Shown one piece after another: positions 23,426 through 38,705 of a stretch of 64,000 nucleotides of DNA (position 1 is the stretch's first letter; the number at the start of each line of letters is the position of its first letter). A model generated the notes under the pieces. That model saw only the letters and a program-made list of their open reading frames with translations, was not told the origin of the DNA and made no database searches. Origin of the DNA: Halieaceae bacterium (GTDB lineage Bacteria > Pseudomonadota > Gammaproteobacteria > Pseudomonadales > Halieaceae); the NCBI GenBank assembly GCA_902520195.1, contig CABYND010000006.1, forward strand, positions 1 to 64,000. The letters run 5' to 3'. A program made the translations under genes and the position numbers.

Positions 23426-23501
23426 GGGCCGTTAGCTCAGTCGGTAGAGCAGTTGGCTTTTAACCAATTGGTCGCTGGTTCGAACCCAGCACGGCCCACC
23501 A
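23426..23501 (+). tRNA. tRNA-Lys(TTT)
   Basis: A complete 76-base cloverleaf with encoded CCA. The acceptor GGGCCGT pairs with ACGGCCC, the D arm is GCTC/GAGC, and the anticodon stem GTTGG/CCAAT bears the loop CTTTTAA with anticodon TTT. The T arm is GCTGG/CCAGC with TTCGAAC. All arms pair. Confidence 0.97.
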
Positions 23502-23507
23502 TTTATC

Positions 23508-23530
23508 AAACCACCTTTGGGTGGTTTTTT
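23508..23530 (+). terminator. Terminator of tRNA-Lys
   Basis: AAACCACC pairs with GGTGGTTT around TTTG, followed by T residues. It lies 6 bases after the tRNA and against the stop of the convergent aldolase gene, so it may serve both strands. Confidence 0.8.
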
Positions 23531-24299
23531 ATTGCGCGTACTCTGGTTCCTCATGGTCCAGTATTGCCTTGAGCTCGGCAAAGTGACGCTCTGCCTGCCC
23601 GGGATAGTCTTCCAAGTCTTTTGCGGTTTTTTCAGCAACCTCGTCCGGCAGCACTCTTAAAGGCTGCCGGGTCCACAGCGCTTTTATGTAAGTCTCTGCT
23701 GCGCGCTCGAAATAAAACAGCCGATTGAAGGCGTCTGCCACGTCGTCGCCAATGACCATGACGCCGTGGTGACACATGACCAGCACCTTTTTATTCGGGT
23801 CTGACAACTGCTGGCAGCAGCGTTCAGCTTCCTCCTCAAACGCCAATCCACCGTATTCGGTATCGATGACGTAGCGATTGAAAAACATGGCGCAGTTTTG
23901 GTCGATGGGAGGCAGCCGCGGATCTTGCAGCGTCGCTAGCACGGTCGCGTGAATCGAGTGCACATGAAGGGCCACGCGGGCATGTTGGCACTGACGGTGC
24001 AGGGCGCCATGAAGACCCCAGGCGGTGGGATCGGGCGCGTTAGGCCGGTTCATCGTCTCTGGATCGTTGGCATCGACCAGAATCAGGTCAGAGGCTTTGA
24101 TGCGTGAGAAATGCGATTGATTGGGGTTCATCAGAAATTGCGTGCCGTCCTCGTTGACGGCTACCGAGAAGTGATTCGCCACGCCCTCGTGAAAGTTGAG
24201 CCGCGCGGCCCATCGAAACGCAGCCGTGAGGTCCGCTCGTTCTTGATGGTGAGAGGCTTTTGAAGCGGCCATGGATGATGTCGAGCGCGCGCTTTGCAT
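23529..24299 (-). CDS. Class II aldolase/adducin family protein
   Basis: Zinc-dependent class II aldolase/adducin fold, 256 residues; members cleave sugar phosphates or act as decarboxylases or epimerases. Metal ligands are in HVHSIHATVLA and the CHHGVMVIGDD block. A start 27 bases downstream (MAASKAS) is equally possible, and neither has a good ribosome site. It converges on tRNA-Lys. The substrate is unknown: the branch seen next to catabolic dioxygenases is often annotated only as class II aldolase. Upstream lies a divergent PhyH gene. Confidence 0.88.
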   Translation of the reverse strand: MQSARSTSSMAASKASHHQERADLTAAFRWAARLNFHEGVANHFSVAVNEDGTQFLMNPNQSHFSRIKASDLILVDANDPETMNRPNAPDPTAWGLHGALHRQCQHARVALHVHSIHATVLATLQDPRLPPIDQNCAMFFNRYVIDTEYGGLAFEEEAERCCQQLSDPNKKVLVMCHHGVMVIGDDVADAFNRLFYFERAAETYIKALWTRQPLRVLPDEVAEKTAKDLEDYPGQAERHFAELKAILDHEEPEYAQ

Positions 24300-24487: not shown

Positions 24488-25282
24488 ATGACACTACAGA
24501 CATTTGCAGCGACGGATGACACCCACGATATGGTGGCCGCCCTGCAGCAAAATGGGGCGGTGGTGATTAGCGCTGTATTACCCGAGGCGGTCTCTGAGGA
24601 ATTGTGTGCCGACTTACGCCCGGAGTTTGACCGCGAGGGCCATCTGTATCAAAACGAATTTAATGGCCATCAAACTTTGCGCGTCGGTGGTGTGACCAAA
24701 TATTCCTCCCACTTTCCCACGCTCCTCTTACATCCCACCGTATTGGCGATCGCGGATGCCATTCTCAAGCCTCACTGCGAGGTCTATCAGGTGGGCAGCA
24801 CCACCGCGATCGAGATACTGCCTGGTGAAGACGCACAGGTGCTACACGCTGACGACGCCTGTTACCCCAGTCATTTGCTGCCCTTTGAAATGCAGATGTC
24901 GGCTCTATGGGCCCTCGATGACTTCACCGTGGAGAACGGTGCCACCCGTGTGGTCCCTAGAGAGATGGGCGTGGAGAAGCCAGAAGACGTCCGTGAAGAA
25001 CATGTGGTGCAGGCCGTGATGCCCAAAGGATCGGTGGTGATTTATCTGGGATCTACGATTCACGGTGGTGGCGCCAATCGGAGCGACGCGCCGCGAAAAG
25101 CGGTGGTCAATACCTACTGTCTGGGTTGGCTACGGCAGGAAGAAAACCAGTATCTGACCCTGACCAAGGAGGAGGTGGCGGCGCAGTCAGATGAAATGCG
25201 ACGGATGCTCGGTTTTCAGGCTCACGGCCCTTATTTAGGAGTGTGGCCAGAGGATCCTGACGGGCTCTGGTACGAGACCTGA
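24488..25282 (+). CDS. Phytanoyl-CoA dioxygenase (PhyH) family protein
   Basis: Fe(II)/2-oxoglutarate-dependent oxygenase, 264 residues. The HxD half of the iron triad is in LHADDACYPSH near residue 119, and the distal His is in IHGGGANRSD with a downstream basic residue for 2-oxoglutarate. The PhyH family hydroxylates fatty acyl-CoAs or diverse small molecules; the substrate is not shown here. It is divergent from the aldolase gene and convergent with the permease gene 57 bases on. No signal peptide, so cytoplasmic. Confidence 0.88.
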   Translation: MTLQTFAATDDTHDMVAALQQNGAVVISAVLPEAVSEELCADLRPEFDREGHLYQNEFNGHQTLRVGGVTKYSSHFPTLLLHPTVLAIADAILKPHCEVYQVGSTTAIEILPGEDAQVLHADDACYPSHLLPFEMQMSALWALDDFTVENGATRVVPREMGVEKPEDVREEHVVQAVMPKGSVVIYLGSTIHGGGANRSDAPRKAVVNTYCLGWLRQEENQYLTLTKEEVAAQSDEMRRMLGFQAHGPYLGVWPEDPDGLWYET

Positions 25283-25339: not shown

Positions 25340-26752
25340 CTACCCCGCCAGACGAGGATCCTTTGCCAACAGCGCGTACAGTACCGGGCCAGATAACAGC
25401 GCCACCAGACCTGCTATCCCGTACCAACCGATCTCCAAACCCAGCAAGTTGAAACGATCCAGCCCCCAGAGGACGACACTCTGATCCATGATGGTGATAC
25501 TCATCATGAAGGCGATCAGGCACAGCGGTGGAACGATCAGGATGACCAGCGTGGAGGTGCCGCCCGGTATCGTGAAGGGTCGCACCAGGCCGGGCTCCTT
25601 CGCCCGCAGCCGCACCGCTGCAATAAAGATCAGGGCGTATGAGGCCACCATCAGCAACACATCAATGATGACGAGGCTCTGAAAGGGGCCAATGACGAGT
25701 ACCGCGTTCACGCCTGCAATCAGAAGTAGTGCCGCGACGGGCGTACCAAAGCGCTCATTGAATACCGCGAGGGGCTTTGGCAGAAGGCCGTCTGCCGCCA
25801 GTTTTTGTAGCGGGCGGGCGCCTGAGGCCATGTAATCCAGATACAGCGCCAGATTCCCCAGGACCACAGACGCCAGCAGCGCGTGACCAAGCGCATTACC
25901 ACCCAGTACACGCCCGATATCGACGAAAGATATCGTGCCCTCTGTGCCATCGACCGAGAACAGCTCCCATTGTCCAAAGGCGGCGAGGCTCCCGAGGGTG
26001 GGCAGGAGATACATCAGCGCCACAAAGGGGAGTGCCAGCATGAGGGCTTTGGGAATGATGCGCTGCGGCTCCTCGATTTCTCCCGCCAGCGTCGACATGG
26101 ACTCATAGCCTGAGTAAAACCACATACCAATACTGAGCCCCACGATGAGCGCTCCATCCGCGCCCAGCAGATCGGTGTCAGGGGGTGTCATCGGTGTGAA
26201 CGGGTTGAATTGCCAATTGGCGAGGCCAATGACGCCGAGCACAACAATGGGAGAAATGATCAGGATCGCAAACAGACTCGACCCGATGGCCACAATCTTG
26301 ATGCCCAAGACGTTGACGACAGTACACACGACAATGACGGCCCAGCAAATCGCATAATAGATCCCGTCGCTAAAGCCAATTTGATTTTGCAGGTAGGTGG
26401 CGCTAAGGACGATGTATAGCGAGGTGTCGACAAGCAGGGCCAACGACCACCACCACCCGGCCTGAAAACCCCAAAATTGGCCCAAGCCTCGCCGTGTCCA
26501 AACATAGAACCCGCCGCTGTCGGGTATTGCAGAACCTAACTCGCTGGCGATAAGCGCCATAGGAAGCGCCCAAATGATGGGGAGCACCAGCAAAAGCAGC
26601 AAGGTCAGGCCTGGGCCAGAGGAGGCCACCATCTCTTCGATGCCAAACGAGCCGCCTGACACGAAGATATAGATCATGAAAAACGCGCTAAAGAGCGGTA
26701 CGCGGGTGCGCTTTGCAGTATTAACTGCTGCTCCGTTCACGTCCTCAGACAC
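25340..26752 (-). CDS. APC-superfamily amino acid permease
   Basis: Polytopic inner-membrane transporter with about 12 hydrophobic segments and 470 residues, typical of APC carriers. The chosen GTG at 26752 has a GGAGGGG ribosome site 6 bases upstream; a GTG at 26767 would add five residues. The N-terminal FFMIYIFVSGGSFGIEEMV block fits the APC substrate-site helix. It is 134 bases downstream of the Rieske oxygenase gene and in the same direction, so it probably imports the compound degraded by the enzymes encoded upstream. The substrate is unknown. Confidence 0.85.
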   Translation of the reverse strand: MSEDVNGAAVNTAKRTRVPLFSAFFMIYIFVSGGSFGIEEMVASSGPGLTLLLLLVLPIIWALPMALIASELGSAIPDSGGFYVWTRRGLGQFWGFQAGWWWSLALLVDTSLYIVLSATYLQNQIGFSDGIYYAICWAVIVVCTVVNVLGIKIVAIGSSLFAILIISPIVVLGVIGLANWQFNPFTPMTPPDTDLLGADGALIVGLSIGMWFYSGYESMSTLAGEIEEPQRIIPKALMLALPFVALMYLLPTLGSLAAFGQWELFSVDGTEGTISFVDIGRVLGGNALGHALLASVVLGNLALYLDYMASGARPLQKLAADGLLPKPLAVFNERFGTPVAALLLIAGVNAVLVIGPFQSLVIIDVLLMVASYALIFIAAVRLRAKEPGLVRPFTIPGGTSTLVILIVPPLCLIAFMMSITIMDQSVVLWGLDRFNLLGLEIGWYGIAGLVALLSGPVLYALLAKDPRLAG

Positions 26753-26885
26753 CGTAAGCCCCTCCACATTTCAACCTGGGAGGCCAGTGCGCGTCGAGTG
26801 ACTGCGTGGACACAGTTACAGCGAGTGGCGGGAGAGAACCATCCCCTTCAGCACCCAATGTACTACATGAGCCACCTTCAATCTT

Positions 26886-28145
26886 TTAGTGGAGGCTGGA
26901 TTCCAGTGAATGCAGATACCAATGCACAAACTGCTGCAGAGTGAACTCGAACTCCGGATGATAGGGGCCGGGCTCAAAGAATCTGGAATTCACGCCTGCA
27001 GCATTGCGGGTAATGATGTATTCATCTTCCAGTGTGGTGTGGTGCCACAGCCAGGTGACTTTGTCGACGTCGTAGTCGACGCCCTCTTGCGCGTCCTCGC
27101 GCACGAACCACACCAGCTCCATGTCGGTTTCGGTGAGCGACCGCGGAATAAAGCGATAGAGCACGCAATGGTCAGGATAGTTGAGCATGAAGGTGACGGG
27201 GCCCATCTGAAAGTCCCCCGCGCCACCGTCGTAATCTTTGAAATTGCCCATGAGCGGCGCGACGGGCTGGCCGTCCTGACTGCCGGTAACATAACCCTCG
27301 AATAACCCGTACCGCATTGTATGCGCGCAGGCACCAAAGCTCGGTGCGTCCAGATAAATCTCCGTGTGTTCTTTTGAGATTCCTGGAATTCCGGTGATGG
27401 CGTCGGCGTTTTCCAGCATCTTCGCAACCACTGGTGCCGATTTTTCCTCGAGATCCTTCAAGGTATGCATTTTGGCGTAGGCGCGGTGGGACGTGGCGCA
27501 GTGGTAGCACTCGAGATAATTCTCGATCGCCAACTTCCAGTTCGCCTCTACCCGGTAAGTCCTGCGATGCGCGACTTTAGCGTGCTCTAGGTCGTAGGCG
27601 CCGAGTGGTTCCCGGATATTCTCAAGCGACGCCACCAGATCGCCGGCATCGCGATCGCAATTAATAAACACCAGGCCCATGTAGGTCACGCACTTCACGG
27701 GTTTCAGACCGTGTGCTGCGGCGTCAAAGTCGGGCATGACGTGGGTCTCGCGCGCAGCTTTGAGCGAGCCATCCACGTTATAAACCCACCCGTGGTAGGG
27801 GCAGACGTAGGTTTTTCGATTGCCGCTCAGTTCTTCACAGACCCGCGCGCCGCGGTGGCGACAGATGTTGTGCATGGCCCGGATATCTCCGGTCTCAGTG
27901 CGCGCCACGATGATCGAGTCCTCACCGATTTCTACAAGCTGGTAGTCACCGGCTGAGGGAATTTCGCTCGCATGCAGCGCATAAATCCAGCTTTTGAATA
28001 TCAGGTGCTCGAGTTCCTGCTCGTGTACCAGATGGGAGCGATAGAAGTAGGGGTCCATGGCGTGATGCGGGCGCAGCTTCTCTGCGTCTAGCTTGTCGCG
28101 CATGCGCTGAAAGGAATCATCTACAGAAGTCGCGATGGCGTTCAT
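26886..28145 (-). CDS. Rieske aromatic-ring-hydroxylating/N-demethylating oxygenase, alpha subunit
   Basis: Terminal oxygenase of Rieske non-haem iron type, 419 residues from MNAIATS; an upstream in-frame ATG at 28229 overlaps the neighbour and adds no conserved sequence. The Rieske cluster motif CRHRG...CPYH shows exact CxHx17CxxH spacing, and the mononuclear iron site is ECYHCATSH (Ex2Hx4H). This architecture resembles glycine-betaine, stachydrine and carnitine monooxygenases as well as ring dioxygenases. No reductase or ferredoxin gene is nearby. It sits 25 bases after a GcvT-like gene, which suggests oxidative release of a one-carbon unit. Confidence 0.9.
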   Translation of the reverse strand: MNAIATSVDDSFQRMRDKLDAEKLRPHHAMDPYFYRSHLVHEQELEHLIFKSWIYALHASEIPSAGDYQLVEIGEDSIIVARTETGDIRAMHNICRHRGARVCEELSGNRKTYVCPYHGWVYNVDGSLKAARETHVMPDFDAAAHGLKPVKCVTYMGLVFINCDRDAGDLVASLENIREPLGAYDLEHAKVAHRRTYRVEANWKLAIENYLECYHCATSHRAYAKMHTLKDLEEKSAPVVAKMLENADAITGIPGISKEHTEIYLDAPSFGACAHTMRYGLFEGYVTGSQDGQPVAPLMGNFKDYDGGAGDFQMGPVTFMLNYPDHCVLYRFIPRSLTETDMELVWFVREDAQEGVDYDVDKVTWLWHHTTLEDEYIITRNAAGVNSRFFEPGPYHPEFEFTLQQFVHWYLHSLESSLH

Positions 28146-28170
28146 GGCGTCACTCGGAGCAATCGATCGA

Positions 28171-29355
28171 TCAATGGGGTGGTGCGGGCGTCTGCCACCG
28201 CTTGGGTGATTTAAAAATCGGTGTGTCAATCACCTTGCAGGGCGCCAGTAAACGGGTCCAGTGCAGCTCGCGCTGATAGTAGATTTCCGCAACCAGTTCA
28301 TCTCCCACGGCGCCGTGGGGCATCTCGATCTGTGCATAGGCAATATTGGCTTTGGCCGTTGGGCACCAGGCGGCTGACGTCACAGTTCCCACCTGCTTGT
28401 TGCCTCTGAGTATGAAGGAGTGCTCCGCTGGTTTGTTGCCCTCAACATCCAGCATGGCAAAGCGATATCGAGAACCCTTTTCCTGCTCTTTAAGCAGCGC
28501 CGAGCGCCCGTTGAAAAGAGGCTTTTTAAAGTCCACAAGCCAGCCCAGACCCAGCTCAAAGGGACTACGGGTGCGCCCTACACGCACGACTTCTTCGGCG
28601 GGCATGAAATCGACATTGGCCTGCAGGAAACCCGCCTCGATCCGCGCAAGCTCTAAGGCATGCGAGCCAATGGGTTTGATCAGGTAATCGCGTCCTAGCT
28701 CAAAGAGTTGGTCCCAGAGTGCTTCAGCTGACTCTGGTGGGACCCATACTTCGTAGCCCAGATCACCGGTAAAACCGGTGCGACTCACCATCAGAGGTCG
28801 TCCCTCGAAGCTGTAGTGTGCGATTCCAAAGGGCTTCAACTGGTTGAGGTCAGTGCAGCCCAGCAGGGTCAAAACGGTGCAAGAGGTTGGGCCTTGCACG
28901 GCCAACCCCGCGACGGCTTCAGACTCGTTTTCAATCGTGACGTCAAAACCCAGTGTGTTCCAGGCAAGCCAGTCGTCCGCGCGCTGATAGGAGCAGATAC
29001 GGTAGTCCTGCTCACCCAGCCTAAAGATCGTGCCATCGTCCATGACCTGGCCGTTGTCGTCGCACCAGATTGCATAGCCCACCCGGTCGACGCCAATTTT
29101 GCTGACGTCTCGCGTAATCAGACGATCCAGATACCGCTGGGCGTCGGGCCCGGTCACGCGATACTTGTTCATGGGTGACAGGTCAAAGACGCCGGTTGTA
29201 CTGCGGACAGCGAAGTACTCCAGTTCAACATCGAAGTAGGCGTTGGGGGTGGTGTAACCCATCCAGTTGCCCCAGTCGTTCAGATCGCACATGGCCTCGA
29301 CCCGAGAATGGAAGGGCGTGGTGAGTAGCATGGTGTCTCGGCTAACGTCGCTCAT
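28171..29355 (-). CDS. GcvT-family folate-dependent aminomethyltransferase-like protein
   Basis: Relative of the glycine-cleavage T protein that uses tetrahydrofolate to accept a methyl or methylene group. 394 residues from MSDVSRD; the ATG overlaps the stop of the upstream FAD gene (TGATG). SRTGFTGDLGYEVW and ALELARIEAGF are conserved in the catabolic GcvT branch. The folate-site Asp lies in VMDDGTIF. It lacks any neighbouring gcvH or gcvP, so it is not the housekeeping T protein. The substrate is probably an N-methyl or N-methylene compound made by the operon's oxidases; S-methyl donors as for DmdA are less likely. Confidence 0.88.
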   Translation of the reverse strand: MSDVSRDTMLLTTPFHSRVEAMCDLNDWGNWMGYTTPNAYFDVELEYFAVRSTTGVFDLSPMNKYRVTGPDAQRYLDRLITRDVSKIGVDRVGYAIWCDDNGQVMDDGTIFRLGEQDYRICSYQRADDWLAWNTLGFDVTIENESEAVAGLAVQGPTSCTVLTLLGCTDLNQLKPFGIAHYSFEGRPLMVSRTGFTGDLGYEVWVPPESAEALWDQLFELGRDYLIKPIGSHALELARIEAGFLQANVDFMPAEEVVRVGRTRSPFELGLGWLVDFKKPLFNGRSALLKEQEKGSRYRFAMLDVEGNKPAEHSFILRGNKQVGTVTSAAWCPTAKANIAYAQIEMPHGAVGDELVAEIYYQRELHWTRLLAPCKVIDTPIFKSPKRWQTPAPPH

Positions 29356-30911
29356 CACAGTGCTCCTCGCTTGAGAATTTCCTTGGCAGCGTTGCGCCCG
29401 GGTAGCCCCTGTAGCCCGCCGCCGGGGTGCGCGCCTGCTCCGCAAAGGTAGAGACCTTCCACCGCAGTCGCATACTGGGTTGATCCGGGGAAGGGTCGCA
29501 TCATCAATGCTTGGTCAATGGAGAGTTCGCCGTGATGCCAGCTGCCACCGGTCATGCCATGAGAGGCCTCGAAATCGGAGGGCACCACCAGCTCGCTGGC
29601 GGTGACCAGTGCGCCGATGCCCGGGGCATAAGCCTCCAGTTCACTCACCAGCTGACTCAAAAGCTGGGGCTTACCAGCCTCCCACCCGATATCCGGTTCA
29701 TAGGGCACGTAGTGCACAATTGCGGTCAGACTATGTTGGCCTTCAGGCGCCAGCTCCGGATCCTCAAGGGTCGGAATATTGATATCAAAGGTGTGCAAGT
29801 CACTCAGCTCCCGGTACTTCATCGGGTTCAGAGCCGTCTCCATGCCGTCCATCGAAGGCGTGATGACCAGCCGCTCTGTCAGCTGTCCTTCGCTGAGTCC
29901 TGTGAAGCTGGGCAGCCCGCTCAATGCGAGATGCAGCTTTGCGGTGCCGCTTCGCGACCGATAGCACTCCACCCGCATGGCCATGCCGGCCTCCATCTGG
30001 TGGTAGCCCAGCAACCGGCGGAAGGTAGTGGCAGGGTCAGCGCTGGAGATCACCAGCTTCGCCGAGATCTGTTCGCCTGAATCGAGGGTGACGCCGGTAA
30101 CGCGTTCTTCCGTTTTAACAATCGCGGTAACTGCTGAACCCAGTCGAATTTTGGCGCCACATTTCTCAGCCGCGGTGGCCAGAGACTGCCCAAAGGCGCC
30201 CATGCCACCTAACACCTGCGTGGTGCCGCTTTGTCCTAAATGTTCACCGGTCGCGCGATGTAAGTAGCTGTAGACAGTGTTGGGTGAGCGGGGTCCCATG
30301 TTCGTGCCGGTGACAGCATCCAGGGCAATGGCGCTCTTCAGCGCGGCATGAGAGAAGTGCTCATTCATGACGTCGTAGATATTGATCATCACGATGCGCA
30401 TCAGATCCCTGAGGCGCTCGCGGCCCAGTAGTTTCAGGCTCAGGCCCAGCTTCATGAGAGTGAGGCGATCTGTCCAGTTCTGCTCCACGAGCTTGGGCGG
30501 ACGACTACGATAGAGCGTCGTCATCAGCTTGGCGAAGCTTCGTACCATATTTTTGAAGTCACGATAGGCCGCCTGATCCGCAGAATCGACGCCGGCACCG
30601 CTAATGGTGTCGCCGTCCAGAACAAGGTGGTCGCCATCCGATTGCAGTGAGATCGTCGTCTTCGACTTACCCAGTTTGAGCCCGGCAGCCTTCAAATCCA
30701 GATCTTTGACGATACCCTGGTCAAATTGTGACAGCCATTGCGCGCAGTCTGAAACATGATGCCCCGGAGCAAACTCCCGTGTACTCGCGCAACCGCCTGG
30801 CTCATTGCGCGCGTCTAGCACCAATACGTGTTTACCTGCTTTGGCGAGGTAACTGGCGCAGATCAGTCCGTTGTGGCCTGCGCCAATAATGATCGCATCG
30901 TAATCAGTCAT
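29355..30911 (-). CDS. NAD(P)/FAD-dependent oxidoreductase, phytoene-desaturase-like (copy 2)
   Basis: Flavin amine-oxidase/CrtI-type dehydrogenase of 518 residues. The N-terminal dinucleotide fold is IIGAGHNGLICASYLAKAGK, and the C-terminal FAD signature is LYLCGAGAHPGGGLQGLPG. It resembles its upstream neighbour along its whole length, so the pair arose by duplication. CrtI itself is a carotenoid enzyme, but no carotenoid genes are here; the PYROXD2-like branch is of uncertain function. It overlaps the upstream gene by 8 bases and the GcvT-like gene by one. Confidence 0.88.
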   Translation of the reverse strand: MTDYDAIIIGAGHNGLICASYLAKAGKHVLVLDARNEPGGCASTREFAPGHHVSDCAQWLSQFDQGIVKDLDLKAAGLKLGKSKTTISLQSDGDHLVLDGDTISGAGVDSADQAAYRDFKNMVRSFAKLMTTLYRSRPPKLVEQNWTDRLTLMKLGLSLKLLGRERLRDLMRIVMINIYDVMNEHFSHAALKSAIALDAVTGTNMGPRSPNTVYSYLHRATGEHLGQSGTTQVLGGMGAFGQSLATAAEKCGAKIRLGSAVTAIVKTEERVTGVTLDSGEQISAKLVISSADPATTFRRLLGYHQMEAGMAMRVECYRSRSGTAKLHLALSGLPSFTGLSEGQLTERLVITPSMDGMETALNPMKYRELSDLHTFDINIPTLEDPELAPEGQHSLTAIVHYVPYEPDIGWEAGKPQLLSQLVSELEAYAPGIGALVTASELVVPSDFEASHGMTGGSWHHGELSIDQALMMRPFPGSTQYATAVEGLYLCGAGAHPGGGLQGLPGRNAAKEILKRGAL

Positions 30912-32520
30912 CGGCGTAACCTCCCGGCACGGTATTGGGTTTCTTCAGATCAGCCAGAATTTCCCGCGCGGCGTTGGCGCCCGGCGCGGCCATCACGCCG
31001 CCGCCGGGGTGCGTGCCGGAGCTGCACATATACATGCCCTTAATCGGCGATCGGTACTGGGCGTAGCCTGGGAAGGGTCTGTTGAAGAGCAATTGGTCGA
31101 AGGTGAGCTCGCCCATGAAGATATTGCCTTCGGTCAGTCCCACCTCCGCCTCGATTTCGCGCGGTGTGCGGGTTTCGCAGTGCAAAATGAGATCGCGGAA
31201 GTTGGGGCTGTAGTTGGAGATTTGGTCAATGACCGACTTTTCAAAGCCGTCTTTGTCCTCGTCGGTCCACTCCCGGCCCTCAACTTTAGGCGGCGCATAC
31301 TGCACGAACACGGACATCATGTGCTTGCCGGGTGGCGCCATGGTCGGGTCGGTCAGTGATGGGATCATCATGTCGAGGTAGGGATCCTTGGACCAGGTAC
31401 CCGCTTTCCAATCGTCGTAGGCGCGCTCCTGTCGCTCCAGCGAGTCGCTGAAGTGAAGATCCCCCGCCATCAGGCGATTACGAGGATCGAGGCCGTGGAA
31501 CACGGGCAGGCCGTCGAGTGCGATATTGAGTTTTCCTGAAGAGCCTCGGATCTTGAAGTTACGGGCTTTTTTCAGCACATCCTTGGGCAGATCCGAGGGG
31601 TTCGTGATGTCCAGGAAGGTCCGCTTCGGATCAAGGTTAGAGACCACGATGGGGGCTTTGTACTCGGTACCGTCTTTCAGTGCGACACCCGCCGCCCGAC
31701 CATTTTTGACAATGATTTCGTCGACGTTGGCGTCACAGAAGATCTCACCGCCATAGGATTGGAACGCTTTGGACAGGGCATCGGCGATGGCGCCCATGCC
31801 ACCGCGGGCAAAGCCCCACGCGCCTACATTGCCGTCCACATCACCCATGTAATGGTGGAGAAGGACGTAGGCGGTGCCGGGAGAGTAGACTCCCAACGCG
31901 GTACCGATGATGCCGCTGCCCGCCATGTGCGCTTTGATGACGTCGGTTTCGAAATATTCGTTGAGGTAGTCCCCGACGCTGGCCGTCCAGAACTTGATGG
32001 TATCGAGCAGCTTCTCCTCGCCCAGATCCATAAAAGAGCGGGCGAATTCCAGCAGATCACGCAGATCTCTGGGCTTCATTGAGGTCGGATCCGGCGGAGT
32101 CCGCATCAGATACGGGCGTATCAGCTTGGTTTGGAGGCTGGTATCCGCTGCATAGCGATCGTAGGCATTGGCATCACGCTTGGAGTGTCGCGCCATCTCG
32201 CGGTAGTGACGGTCGTGGTCGCTGTAATTGCCGAAGTAGTCACCGTTACGCGTAAAAGTAGCGCCACCCCCGAACGAGACCACCTGCAAGCCGTGCCGAG
32301 GCAGCTCGAGGTCACGGGTAATTTCTGGCCTCAGCAGGCTCGATACGTAGGAGCAATTGGAGTACCACCAACCTTTATGCAATTCCCGGCTAACCGTGGC
32401 GCCGCCGATATAGGGATTGCGCTCCAGGACGGCCACTTTGAGCCCCGCCTTGGCGAGGTAGGCACCGTTGGTGAGGCCATTGTGGCCCGCACCAATGACG
32501 ATCGCGTCGTATTGGTTCAC
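30904..32520 (-). CDS. NAD(P)/FAD-dependent oxidoreductase, phytoene-desaturase-like (copy 1)
   Basis: First gene of the leftward operon, 538 residues. GTG start with GGAGAG 5 bases before it. The Rossmann motif is VIGAGHNGLTNGAYLAKAG and the C-terminal flavin motif is GMYMCSSGTHPGGGVMAAPG. It pairs with copy 2 and the GcvT-like protein. Likely role, by context, is to oxidise C-N or C-C bonds of a small zwitterion, with each copy acting on a different intermediate or both forming a heteromer. No signal peptide. Transcription starts opposite a TetR gene across a palindrome. Confidence 0.88.
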   Translation of the reverse strand: MNQYDAIVIGAGHNGLTNGAYLAKAGLKVAVLERNPYIGGATVSRELHKGWWYSNCSYVSSLLRPEITRDLELPRHGLQVVSFGGGATFTRNGDYFGNYSDHDRHYREMARHSKRDANAYDRYAADTSLQTKLIRPYLMRTPPDPTSMKPRDLRDLLEFARSFMDLGEEKLLDTIKFWTASVGDYLNEYFETDVIKAHMAGSGIIGTALGVYSPGTAYVLLHHYMGDVDGNVGAWGFARGGMGAIADALSKAFQSYGGEIFCDANVDEIIVKNGRAAGVALKDGTEYKAPIVVSNLDPKRTFLDITNPSDLPKDVLKKARNFKIRGSSGKLNIALDGLPVFHGLDPRNRLMAGDLHFSDSLERQERAYDDWKAGTWSKDPYLDMMIPSLTDPTMAPPGKHMMSVFVQYAPPKVEGREWTDEDKDGFEKSVIDQISNYSPNFRDLILHCETRTPREIEAEVGLTEGNIFMGELTFDQLLFNRPFPGYAQYRSPIKGMYMCSSGTHPGGGVMAAPGANAAREILADLKKPNTVPGGYADD

Positions 32521-32588
32521 TGCACTCTCCGGTGAGTCAATCTGAGCTGAAATACTGCCACGACAGGCTATGAGCGTCTACCCAGAAT

Positions 32589-32604
32589 GAATGAATGTTC
32601 ATTC
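32589..32604. promoter_or_regulatory. TetR-type operator palindrome between the oxidoreductase operon and its regulator
   Basis: GAATGAA-TG-TTCATTC: two perfect 7-base arms around a 2-base centre. It lies 69 bases from the operon GTG and 62 bases from the TetR ATG, the right place to control both. The spacing and TGAA/TTCA arms resemble sites bound by BetI-like TetR proteins. Confidence 0.65.
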
Positions 32605-32665
32605 TTGATTGAGACTTAGGTCCGAAATCCTTAGACTCGGGCGAATAGGTGTTGCGAGAACCCAC

Positions 32666-33328
32666 ATGACTGATGCATCCAGCGCAGTGACCGAAGCTCT
32701 ACCGGAGGCTGGCAGTAAGCGCCGTCAGATTCGCCCGAGAGCCGAGCGGCGGCAGCAGCTGATTGACGCGACGATTCGGTGCATTGCCCAACATGGGCTC
32801 TCCGCAGTCACCATGCAGATGGTGACCCGGGAGGCGGGCCTAAGCGTGGGCATCGCCAATTTGCATTTTGAGAGCAAAGACAATTTGCTCAAGGAAACGC
32901 TTCGCTTCGTTGCCGAGGAATACCACGGCGGGCAGATCGATATTATGGAAGGGGGTGATATCCCCGACCTAGGTGAACGGCTCGACGCCCTGCTGGATTT
33001 TCAGCTGGGCCGCGGCGTCACCCAGCGGCAAAAGATGTCCGTGTGGTTCGCCTACTATGGAGAGGCGGGTGCGCGGCCTGTCTATCAGAAGATCGTATCA
33101 ACCGTAGACAGGCTTGCTGCCCAAAAACTGGAAGCTTTATTTACCGATATTATCCGCGAGGGTGATTACCATGGCGTCGATGCGCGAGAGTTAGCAACGG
33201 GCTATTCGGCACTGATCGATGGTTTGCACCTCGGGCTACTGGTTACACCTCGAGAGCTCAGTAAGCGCCGCGCTAGGGCTGTAGCACGCGAATTCCTTCG
33301 CCGCGCTTTCCCCCAGCACATCCACTGA
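32666..33328 (+). CDS. TetR-family regulator, BetI-like
   Basis: DNA-binding repressor of 220 residues from MTDASSAV; an upstream TTG or similar at 32609 would overlap the operator region. The HTH is RRQQLIDATIRCIAQHGLSA and the following VTREAGLSVGIANLHFESKD, which closely follows the BetI pattern (choline-betaine repressor). The remaining all-helical part would bind the inducer. It is divergent from the FAD-GcvT-Rieske genes and likely represses them until the methylated substrate or a breakdown product binds. Identity of the ligand is unknown. Confidence 0.9.
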   Translation: MTDASSAVTEALPEAGSKRRQIRPRAERRQQLIDATIRCIAQHGLSAVTMQMVTREAGLSVGIANLHFESKDNLLKETLRFVAEEYHGGQIDIMEGGDIPDLGERLDALLDFQLGRGVTQRQKMSVWFAYYGEAGARPVYQKIVSTVDRLAAQKLEALFTDIIREGDYHGVDARELATGYSALIDGLHLGLLVTPRELSKRRARAVAREFLRRAFPQHIH

Positions 33329-33359: not shown

Positions 33360-33917
33360 TTAGCGCTGTATCTTCGTTGGTGGGATGTAATCGAAGATAA
33401 AGTTGATCCGCCCCTCGCTACCTTTGTTCATCACGCTGTGCTGTTTCTGGTTGTTGATTTCATAGACGTGACCAATGGGCATCTTTTGTGGTCGTCCGTC
33501 GATCATGAAGCGTACCCGGGGGTTGGTATAGATGGGGATGTGGATGCGGTGACCAAAGTGGAATGAAGGGTGATTGTCGGTGTGCGGCTTGATGATGCCG
33601 CCTGCTTCGAGCCGTGCCGCCATGGCACGGATAATGGTGCCCCCCGGGGGATAATGATCCTCGAGAATCTGGTGCATCAGCGGTATGGCCTCGTCGGCCA
33701 GCAGATCCCAACCTTCGTCTTTGGAGACCTCGATGTCGGGCCAGCCGTCGCCGTCGGTAAATACCATAACCACCGATTGCGTATGCTGATGAACCTCGTA
33801 CTCCAGCTGTCGGAACTGATTGCCCCACCAAGCCTCCTCGGGCAAGTCCATAATCTTGGCCTTCAGCGGCTCAATGTCATATTCACCGAGATCTTTGATG
33901 GGTATTCCAATGTCCAC
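33360..33917 (-). CDS. Aspartyl/asparaginyl beta-hydroxylase-like oxygenase
   Basis: Fe(II)/2-oxoglutarate oxygenase of the Asp/Asn beta-hydroxylase (AspH/LpxO) superfamily, 185 residues from GTG. The iron ligand region is KPHTDNHPSFHFGHRIHIPI with basic Arg for 2-oxoglutarate; the distal ligand is in NNQKQHSVMNKG. No membrane segment, so a soluble small-molecule or peptide hydroxylase. It lies 70 bases downstream of the amidohydrolase gene in the same direction and convergent with the TetR gene. Substrate unknown. Confidence 0.85.
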   Translation of the reverse strand: MDIGIPIKDLGEYDIEPLKAKIMDLPEEAWWGNQFRQLEYEVHQHTQSVVMVFTDGDGWPDIEVSKDEGWDLLADEAIPLMHQILEDHYPPGGTIIRAMAARLEAGGIIKPHTDNHPSFHFGHRIHIPIYTNPRVRFMIDGRPQKMPIGHVYEINNQKQHSVMNKGSEGRINFIFDYIPPTKIQR

Positions 33918-36550: not shown

Positions 36551-36710
36551 AGAAAACTCCCGTGGTGCGTGTACCCGCAACGCGCGGGCGCGGCCTACTC
36601 TCGCACCCGTTTGCGCGCAACGCAACGGTTGTTAATGTGAGGGGCGCGAGAATCTGGCACACTTTCTCCGCATTTTGTGAGCTGTATGCCTGTTGTTCGA
36701 GACTGAATGG

Positions 36711-38705
36711 ATGAATGACCAAAGCCCAAGAGCTGTCTTTGAGCGCGCCGTGTCGCTTCTCAAAGGGGGCGCCCGGCAGGAAGCGGAATCTCTATGCCGC
36801 GATATGCTTGAGCGAGACCCGGGAGATATTAATTTTGTCTCTCTGCTGGGCTCCATCCTAGCCACGCGCGGTGCACAAGAGGAAGCTGTAGATTTATTGA
36901 GTCGCGCTGTGAAGGCTGCCCCCGGGCACGCCAAGGCGCGCGAGGATTTAGGCACGCTGTTATTGAACCTGGATCGGGTAGAGGAGGCGCTCCCGCACCT
37001 CGAGCGCGCTCAGGAACTTCGACCACCTCATGCTCCACTCAAGAGCAAGCTGAGTGCTGCTTATCAGCGATTGGGGCGGTCTGACGAGGCACAACGACTC
37101 CGCAATGAAGCCGCCTCGCTATCGCCGACGCAGGCCAAGCTGGATGAAGCCACGCGTCTTTTTGTTAAAGGGCAGTTCAGAGAGTCGGAAAAGCTCGCTC
37201 AGGAGCTGGTCCGTGAAAATCCCCACGACGTCAACGCAGCATTGCTTCTGGCAAGATTAGCGATGATGGCGAACTGCTATGAGGATGCGCGCGAAATTCT
37301 GGAGCGGATCGTGGAAAAGCAGCCACGATTCATCGCTGCCTGGCACGATCTAGGTACCGTGCTTAAAGAATGTCATGAGTACGAGGAAGCAGTTGCGGTT
37401 CTGGAAAAAGCGCTGACGCTCGAGCCCGAGAACGCGCTGACACATTATTACCACGGCGCGGCGCTGGCGATGGCTGCCAGACCCGCAGAGGCCGTCGAAT
37501 CCTACGAGAAGGCCGTCGGTATTGATCCCGAGCTACCGGGCGCTCACATTGGGCTGGGCCATGTCCTGAAGACAGTGGGCGACCAGGAGGGTGGTATTGC
37601 CGCCTATCGTCGCGCCATCGACTTGCGACCCAACTTTGGTGAGACTTACTACAGCCTTGCCAACTTGAAGACGTTCCGTTTTACAGAACAGGATGTCGAC
37701 GCAATGAGCCAGCGCCTGGCTAATGATTCGCTGCCCGTTGAGTGCCGCGTCCATTTTGCTTTTTCGTTAGGCAAAGCCTTTGAAGATCAGAAAGACTACG
37801 ATCGAGCGTTTGAACATTACGCTCTCGCCAATCAGTTGCATCGTGACACGATTGCCTATGATCCGGTACAAACGGGTGTGGCCCACGAGAGGATGCGCGA
37901 GGTTTTCAGCGCCGACTATTTCGCTAGTCGAGGCGCCGAATCAGGATGCCAAAGCGCTGATCCTATCTTTATCGTCGGCTTGCCGCGATCCGGCTCGACA
38001 CTGCTCGAGCAGATCTTGGCCAGCCACTCGCTGGTCGATGGCACCAGCGAATTACCCGATATTTCCATGATTGCTCAAGGCCTGACACAACCCCGATCAG
38101 GGCAGGCGTTTCCCCGCTGTATGCCTGATCTAAGCGACGACGCAGTCAGAGGGCTGGGTGAGCAATACCTAGACCAAACAGGGCGTCATCGCGCCTCAGC
38201 GCCTTTTTTTACCGACAAGATGCCGAACAACTTTGCCTACGTAGGGTTCATCAAGGCCATTCTGCCCAATGCCAAGATCATTGATGCCCGCCGGCACCCC
38301 ATGGATAGTTGCTTTGGTTGCTTCAAGCAGCACTTTGCCAAAGGGCAAACCTTTACCTACGACCTGTTTGAACTGGGCGAGTTCTATCTCGAGTACTGTG
38401 AACTCATGGACCACTGGAATGCTGTGTTACCGGGAGCTGTGCTCCACGTGCAGTACGAAGAGGTTGTTGCTGACCTCGACACGCAGGTCCGTAGGATTCT
38501 CGACTTTTGCGGTCTGCCTTTTGAGGAGAGCTGCGTGAACTTCCACGAAACCGAGCGCGCCGTGAGGACAGCAAGTTCCGAGCAGGTGCGCCAACCGATT
38601 TATTCGGGGTCCGTGCAGACCTGGAAGCATTACGGCGAACATCTTGATGGCTTGAGAGAGATTCTGGAGCCTGTTTTCCCTGAGTTGCCGGCATCTCAAG
38701 CATGA
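36711..38705 (+). CDS. TPR-containing sulfotransferase
   Basis: Transfers sulfate from PAPS to a hydroxyl on sugar, lipid or protein. About 664 residues from ATG at 36711 (a TTG at 36693 is also open). The N-terminal 400 residues are tetratricopeptide repeats such as AWHDLGTVLKECHEYEEAVAVL. The sulfotransferase domain begins PIFIVGLPRSGSTLLEQIL, the 5'-phosphosulfate loop. A 3'-phosphate-binding segment is plausible in DARRHPMDSCFG. No signal peptide. It overlaps the next gene by ATGA. No PAPS-synthesis genes are in the window. Confidence 0.9.
   Translation: MNDQSPRAVFERAVSLLKGGARQEAESLCRDMLERDPGDINFVSLLGSILATRGAQEEAVDLLSRAVKAAPGHAKAREDLGTLLLNLDRVEEALPHLERAQELRPPHAPLKSKLSAAYQRLGRSDEAQRLRNEAASLSPTQAKLDEATRLFVKGQFRESEKLAQELVRENPHDVNAALLLARLAMMANCYEDAREILERIVEKQPRFIAAWHDLGTVLKECHEYEEAVAVLEKALTLEPENALTHYYHGAALAMAARPAEAVESYEKAVGIDPELPGAHIGLGHVLKTVGDQEGGIAAYRRAIDLRPNFGETYYSLANLKTFRFTEQDVDAMSQRLANDSLPVECRVHFAFSLGKAFEDQKDYDRAFEHYALANQLHRDTIAYDPVQTGVAHERMREVFSADYFASRGAESGCQSADPIFIVGLPRSGSTLLEQILASHSLVDGTSELPDISMIAQGLTQPRSGQAFPRCMPDLSDDAVRGLGEQYLDQTGRHRASAPFFTDKMPNNFAYVGFIKAILPNAKIIDARRHPMDSCFGCFKQHFAKGQTFTYDLFELGEFYLEYCELMDHWNAVLPGAVLHVQYEEVVADLDTQVRRILDFCGLPFEESCVNFHETERAVRTASSEQVRQPIYSGSVQTWKHYGEHLDGLREILEPVFPELPASQA

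Follow-up and report, generated by a model that had tools for sequence, protein, structure and literature searches.

Dimethylglycine dehydrogenase/oxidase and sarcosine oxidase couple flavin-dependent amine dehydrogenation to folate, the flavin part being of the DAO type in dimethylglycine dehydrogenase/oxidase and in heterotetrameric sarcosine oxidase. The C-terminal domain of trimethylamine N-oxide (TMAO) demethylase is thought to capture formaldehyde. In the glycine betaine route (GbcAB, DgcAB, SoxBDAG), a Rieske oxygenase acts first and flavin enzymes with 5,10-methylene-tetrahydrofolate (5,10-methylene-THF) follow (PMC12093977). Here we analyze an operon for two CrtI-like flavoproteins, a GcvT-like protein, a Rieske oxygenase, a permease and a BetI-like TetR regulator, located at positions 25340–33328 of a 64,000-nucleotide stretch (the window) from a Halieaceae bacterium (assembly GCA_902520195.1, contig CABYND010000006.1, positions 1 to 64,000 of the forward strand). 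Its genes and their conservation, the intact motifs, the palindrome shared with relatives and the neighbourhoods of those relatives lead us to propose, with about even confidence, that the operon may take up an N-methylated, polyamine-like amine and remove its methyl groups oxidatively, step by step; the substrate is inferred from these data.

Layout and conservation of the operon

The operon exists as the sequence-only reading had described it, and its gene order, overlaps, spacing, divergent regulator and palindrome were all confirmed from the open reading frames (ORFs) and the sequence. The gene for the first CrtI-like flavin adenine dinucleotide (FAD) oxidoreductase, CrtI-1 (538 aa, GTG start, 30904–32520, minus strand, Pfam DAO/Amino_oxidase), ends in an 8-base overlap with the start of that for the second, CrtI-2 (518 aa, 29355–30911, minus strand, supported by ORF, Pfam and NCBIfam), whose stop overlaps by 1 base the start of the gene for the GcvT-like folate-dependent protein (394 aa, ATG at 29355, 28171–29355, minus strand, Pfam GCV_T and GCV_T_C). 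The gene for a Rieske oxygenase alpha subunit of the GbcA/Stc2 type (419 aa, 26886–28145, minus strand, Pfam Rieske and Ring_hydroxyl_A) begins with an ATG at 28145, 25 bases past the GcvT-like stop, and is followed by that for an APC-family permease (475 aa, 25340–26767, minus strand, Pfam AA_permease_2). The TetR gene (32666–33328, plus strand, ATG at 32666 with TTG at 32609 also possible, TetR_N and TetR_C_6) diverges from CrtI-1 across a 16-base putative operator palindrome, GAATGAANNTTCATTC (32589–32604), recognized from the sequence and its recurrence in relatives. A promoter and terminator scan gave matches at chance level only. None of the six operon proteins reached an NCBIfam cut-off among the models listed (the best 25 of 46 for CrtI-1 and the best 25 of 59 for CrtI-2), so that none is a textbook CrtI, CrtO, GcvT, GbcA or BetI. 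Judged by the named relatives nearest to it, the genome of the window (2.14 Mb in 57 contigs, 69% complete) belongs near Luminiphilus and other Halieaceae.

Conservation was assessed by scanning with an alignment of six CrtI-1 proteins. Of at least 580 relatives, the top 80, all named, were retained (64–99% identical); they belong to Halieaceae, Porticoccaceae, OM182, Woeseiaceae, Pseudohongiella, Mesorhizobium, Shinella and others. Where a locus extends far enough downstream, tblastn places CrtI-2 directly after CrtI-1 in 77 of 78 cases and GcvT next after CrtI-2 in 69 of 70, with L109 the sole exception both times; the 8-base ATG overlap is repeated at 56 of 73 tallied CrtI-1 stops. A Rieske match (31–88% identical) occurs in 39 of the 80 loci, a TetR match in 54, and a match to the window's permease in one. 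These linkage counts mark the flavoprotein pair and GcvT as the core, the Rieske oxygenase as a frequent partner and the permease as a local choice. The expectation of one conserved unit is supported, with a conserved operator and with the Rieske and permease genes as its less fixed members. The family of the window is represented by 140 genomes, of which 55 carry a CrtI-1 orthologue (at least 74% identical), 62 the Rieske protein and 51 both (Fisher p 2e-22 without correction for kinship, a value inflated because family genomes share ancestry). The two genes share a contig in 43 of these 51 genomes, always within 8 kb, and lie on different contigs in the other eight.

The palindrome recurs with 0–2 mismatches in 23/23 divergent regions, comprising the window and the 22 of 80 loci with a TetR ORF directly before CrtI-1 (none alphaproteobacterial), against means of 4.9–6.0 mismatches in single-base shuffles; at L096, one of 50 shuffles matched as well as the real sequence. 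The regulator itself scored 105.5 bits against the BetI model TIGR03384 (cut-off 201.3), which excludes a true BetI choline repressor and bears out its earlier description as BetI-like. Adjoining the TetR gene is an aspartyl/asparaginyl beta-hydroxylase-like gene (33360–33917, minus strand), which has a relative in 16/80 operon loci, in L052, L054, L059 and L061 directly after a PRK07480-like aminotransferase gene; the encoded protein could possibly hydroxylate the substrate.

Predicted catalytic machinery

The Rieske protein aligned nearly full length with the GbcA model NF058607 at 283.8 bits and missed its curated cut-off of 670, and a true GbcA was therefore ruled out. It is 34.7% identical over 401 columns, in a full-length alignment, to PDB 3vca, which we take to be the proline betaine (stachydrine) demethylase Stc2, and its match to CntA spans only residues 33–226 of 420. 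Set beside GbcA, Stc2 and CntA, the characterized enzymes named for comparison in the sequence-only reading, the protein is of the same Rieske type as the first two. It carries the CxH...CxxH cluster ligands and a 2-His-1-carboxylate site. In a set of 37 sequences with identities above 40%, at least 97% conserve C96, H98, C116 and H119 (presumably the cluster ligands), H216, H221 and D375 (presumably the iron ligands) and E213 (presumably bridging), in a numbering that runs one ahead of a count from the ATG at 28145. The genome of the window (2.1 Mb, 69% complete) matches this protein at 18 places, which seems many for its size.

The nearly full-length GbcA match (284 bits), the identity to Stc2 and the BetI-like regulator all favour the main rival to our proposal, namely that the operon demethylates a small betaine (a glycine, proline, or beta- or gamma-amino acid betaine) and that the polyamine genes near its relatives are incidental or handle a second substrate. 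The missed GbcA cut-off argues against this reading, which we regard as doubtful.

The GcvT-like protein contains PF01571 (193.2 bits) and PF08669 (38.9 bits), both above gathering scores. A true glycine-cleavage GcvT was ruled out by its score against TIGR00528 (162.2 bits, cut-off 235.85), and its match to the TMAO demethylase model NF053776 (264.1 bits, cut-off 1100) covers only profile positions 384–732 of 763. The closest solved relative is the C-terminal part of TMAO demethylase (PDB 9q5a, E 1.4e-52), followed by GcvT. Residues D106/D107, Y94, E202 and R238, which we take by comparison with T-protein to be folate-pocket positions, are conserved in at least 97% of 61 sequences.

Both flavoproteins missed the cut-offs of the carotenoid models, CrtI-1 scoring 111.1 bits against TIGR02734 (cut-off 238.1) and 296.1 against NF045689 (cut-off 1000), and CrtI-2 scoring 133.7 and 217.8, respectively. 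Since, in addition, Pfam and NCBIfam scans of the ten window genes lying from 23.5 to 35.4 kb found no carotenoid gene, a carotenoid function of the pair was ruled out. AlphaFold (AF2) models had predicted local distance difference test (pLDDT) scores of 85.5 for CrtI-1 and 88.3 for CrtI-2. The nearest folds to the CrtI-1 model were 4rep and other CrtI-type chains and then flavin amine oxidases; across both models, carotenoid desaturase came first and nicotine oxidoreductase (NicA2), putrescine oxidase and other flavin amine oxidases next. Desaturase CrtI and Rab GDI were also among the matches, and the likeness is at fold level only.

The resemblance to putrescine oxidase and NicA2 accords with our proposal and is also what would be expected if CrtI-1 and CrtI-2 oxidized a polyamine backbone, not N-methyl groups, with GcvT and the Rieske oxygenase acting elsewhere. 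Some distant CrtI homologues likewise lie with genes for PuuC-like aldehyde dehydrogenase, aminotransferase and acetylpolyamine aminohydrolase, and others with genes for gamma-aminobutyrate transaminase and semialdehyde dehydrogenase. The fold family is broad, however, and the tight linkage of GcvT to the pair (69/70) makes most sense if a one-carbon (C1) unit is produced, so that we consider backbone oxidation improbable. Stepwise N-demethylation with folate capture is the most likely mechanism suggested by these protein families, and the earlier proposal of N-demethylation with the C1 unit passed to folate, drawn from the pairing of Rieske and GcvT proteins, appears largely sound; the predicted catalytic and folate-pocket positions are intact.

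The genome of the window holds a second CrtI-2/CrtI-1/GcvT module, 42%, 60% and 44% identical, respectively, to that of the operon. Nearby are a gamma-glutamylputrescine-synthetase-like gene and a DAO gene, both below NCBIfam cut-offs, and a homologue of SpdH (spermidine dehydrogenase; E 6.9e-120), a setting that favours a polyamine-like substrate. The same genome has a further divergent pair of CrtI-like genes; the module, the SpdH homologue and this pair are recorded at L007 5807–13553 and L008 840–4206.

Polyamine-type neighbourhoods and the candidate substrate

In both Gamma- and Alphaproteobacteria, the core often lies beside genes of polyamine-breakdown type, which points to a methylated polyamine-like substrate rather than one of the usual small betaines. 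The recurrent neighbours encode a PotFGHI-type importer, class III aminotransferases, a gamma-glutamylputrescine-synthetase-like ligase, a DAO-type oxidase, a glutamine-amidotransferase-like protein, PuuC-like aldehyde dehydrogenases, an ADP-forming acyl-CoA synthetase and an acyl-CoA dehydrogenase. Forty loci span 21.5 kb or more (long loci); among them, raw counts gave at least three Pot components in 25, the gamma-glutamylamide-synthetase-like ligase in 15, a class III aminotransferase in 20, and at least one of these three markers in 34. The aminotransferases are of mixed subfamilies (PRK07480, PRK07036, GntE/HemL-like and a fourth in L034).

Plasmids carry similar clusters. Seven plasmid records have an orthologue of at least 60% identity, and all five examined with 12 kb flanks (from Rhizobium, Ensifer, Shinella, Parasedimentitalea and Fuscovulum, the Ensifer record having no annotation of its own at the locus) contain TetR, CrtI-2, GcvT, a Rieske protein (30–43% identical), a Pot-type ABC transporter and a class III aminotransferase. 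A sixth, with 3 kb flanks, contains a substrate-binding protein, TetR, both flavoproteins and GcvT. As a rough control, with flanks of 6–8 kb versus 12 kb for the plasmid loci, eight loci of distant CrtI homologues (34–41% identical) showed GcvT in one, a Rieske protein in one and three or more Pot components in none.

The binding proteins of the importers offer a clue to the ligand. According to PMC8666671, PotF holds the proximal primary amine through S38, D39 and D247 and has an aromatic box of W37, W244 and F276, while E185 and D278 belong to the distal group; across 250 homologues, D247, D278 and E185 each show at least 96% conservation. In the numbering of PDB 7oyx, which is listed apart from 1a99 and is possibly an engineered protein whose residues 87, 88 and 276 are perhaps not wild type, W37, D39, W244, D247 and D278 are kept in all 22 operon-linked PotF proteins, and E185 is kept in none, being replaced by S/T in 12 and D in 10. 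This pattern might fit a binder of an amine that is free and primary at one end and altered at the other; it is a clue, not proof. The retention of D39 and D247, the primary-amine holders, in 22/22 proteins also counts against a small betaine, because a betaine has no primary amine.

Other observations at the loci lean toward the small betaine. Genes for acyl-CoA synthetase occur in 22/80 loci and for acyl-CoA dehydrogenase in 24/80, and a distant CrtI and GcvT pair in Shinella sumterensis is accompanied by genes of the CoA-ligase, hydratase and 3-keto-5-aminohexanoate-cleavage types, a setting that we take to be carnitine-like. Fifteen PotD-like proteins were found in Alphaproteobacteria, and the 12 left after taking a single protein from each locus all lack the PotF-type aspartates; the ligand in Alphaproteobacteria may accordingly differ, which tells against a polyamine-like substrate as well.

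Further points weigh against our proposal. Position 38, in the proximal amine group, varies among the 22 PotF proteins. All three polyamine markers are lacking in six of the 40 long loci (L062, L076, L078, L080, L092 and L106). The ligase scored 203 against a cut-off of 650 for gamma-glutamylputrescine synthetase, so that an amine other than putrescine is possible. No Pot, Puu or aminotransferase gene was found among the ten scanned window genes, nor any PotF match in the genome of the window, which is 69% complete and was searched without a positive control, and a full-length SpdH homologue occurs in only one of the 80 loci, L053, where it flanks the operon and is 38.5% identical to the SpdH homologue of the window's genome. 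Beyond the core's close relatives, an aminotransferase lies near three of the eight distant CrtI homologues, and the wider CrtI family is also found near amine genes without GcvT. The Rieske oxygenase is a less constant partner. It has no match in 16 of the 40 long loci, and among the family genomes, some of them incomplete, it occurs without a CrtI-1 orthologue in 11/140 and is lacking beside one in 4/140. In a class sample of 369 genomes, five contain the GcvT-like protein at E ≤1e-90, the genome of the window included, and the other four have TetR, CrtI-1, CrtI-2 and GcvT without an orthologous Rieske gene in 19 kb, a partial 35% Rieske match lying at the edge of one of them (L030). Finally, no Rieske reductase turned up and none is in the operon, no genome-wide search having been made.

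The sequence-only reading had listed glycine betaine, stachydrine, trigonelline and homarine as candidate substrates, and this list is probably wrong; small betaines and N-methylpyridinium compounds find no support from the neighbourhoods, which are polyamine-type instead. For homarine (N-methylpicolinate), a conserved pathway has been published in environmental bacteria and Mgd is reported to take part, as stated in a passage citing that work (PMC13390433). Although a Rieske enzyme could attack the ring, Pfam and NCBIfam identified no ring-opening enzyme of known type in the operon and the neighbours of its relatives are polyamine-type, so that a homarine or other N-methylpyridinium pathway appears very unlikely.

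Other genes around the operon and its relatives were also recorded. A PhyH-type dioxygenase gene (24488–25282, plus strand) lies between the aldolase gene described below and the permease gene and is matched in one of the 80 loci, the close relative L034 (CrtI-1 96% identical), in which a class III aminotransferase gene, not present in the window, immediately follows the permease gene. The class II aldolase-family gene (23529–24299, minus strand) scores above the PRK07490 cut-off and has a 49% identical homologue beside the single CrtI and GcvT pair of Shinella sumterensis (L119). A large protein (36693–38705, plus strand) is related (28–72% identity) to a cluster of TPR-sulfotransferase-like proteins that recurs in 12/80 loci, the L044 member having been scanned with Pfam. 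Alphaproteobacterial loci (L093, L104, L116 and others) have an S-adenosylmethionine-dependent methyltransferase gene beside the core, often with an amino-oxidase gene; a methyltransferase is odd in a demethylation cluster. A single tRNA-Lys (TTT) gene (23426–23501, plus strand) lies downstream of putative tolA-tolB-pal-ybgF genes read from ORFs.

Proposed pathway and comparison with known systems

In the pathway that we propose, the permease, or a PotFGHI-type importer in many relatives, would bring in the amine, and the Rieske oxygenase would oxidize a methyl on the most methylated nitrogen, to be released as formaldehyde. CrtI-1 and CrtI-2 would then oxidize the remaining N-methyl groups to a methylene-iminium or formaldehyde, and the GcvT-like protein would move the C1 unit to tetrahydrofolate, giving 5,10-methylene-THF. 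The leftover primary amine could enter the class III aminotransferase or gamma-glutamyl-amine route, whose genes adjoin the core in many relatives, and the BetI-like repressor would control the operon from the shared palindrome. The three oxidants (Rieske, CrtI-1 and CrtI-2) would suit three methyl groups; we infer the order of these steps and any formation of a complex.

Marine dissolved organic nitrogen includes methylated amines as an important component (PMC13390433), and long-chain polyamines of varying methylation are described from algal silica and from sediments containing it (PMC12206195). More tentatively, the operon may represent a dedicated bacterial pathway for N-methylated polyamines, such as fragments of the methylated long-chain polyamines of algal biosilica, in which the CrtI pair and the free-standing GcvT-like protein would form a new kind of folate-coupled demethylating dehydrogenase acting after the Rieske oxygenase has treated the most methylated nitrogen. 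If true, this would name a polyamine demethylation route in marine Gammaproteobacteria (Halieaceae, Porticoccaceae and Woeseiaceae), Rhodobacterales and rhizobia, and would assign a role to CrtI-like flavoproteins whose annotation now says no more than NAD(P)/FAD-dependent oxidoreductase. In the literature searched, which leaves out most subscription papers and all bioRxiv preprints, we found neither a CrtI-CrtI-GcvT unit nor bacterial polyamine demethylation described. A paper on SAR11 polyamine metabolism (PMC8437039) lists pot, puu, spu and spdH genes, and term counts in it gave no occurrence of GcvT, phytoene or aminomethyl.

The operon shares features with several described systems. Its proposed type of substrate, an N-methylated marine compound, is shared by the homarine pathway, as far as the passage citing that pathway tells (PMC13390433). 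Like the Puu/Spu polyamine catabolism clusters with PotFGHI, many of its relatives carry such genes around the core, unlike the window copy itself, which is without Pot and Puu neighbours; to our knowledge, the known Puu/Spu clusters contain no Rieske protein, CrtI pair or GcvT. Its Rieske protein falls in the same subgroup as Stc2, aligning over the full length at an identity far from orthology, and it fits the GbcA model nearly full length. The proposed Rieske step followed by flavin enzymes with 5,10-methylene-THF is shared with glycine betaine demethylation. The operon differs from that route in its CrtI-like flavoproteins, the lack of a reductase gene in the unit, the missed GbcA cut-off and the polyamine-type neighbourhood of its relatives. 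The closest solved relative of its GcvT-like protein is the C-terminal folate-type domain of TMAO demethylase, but the GcvT-type part is a separate gene in the operon. The same protein also matches the GcvT-type domain of dimethylglycine dehydrogenase/oxidase and heterotetrameric sarcosine oxidase, whereas the flavin part of the operon, unlike that of dimethylglycine dehydrogenase and sarcosine oxidase, is a CrtI-type pair.

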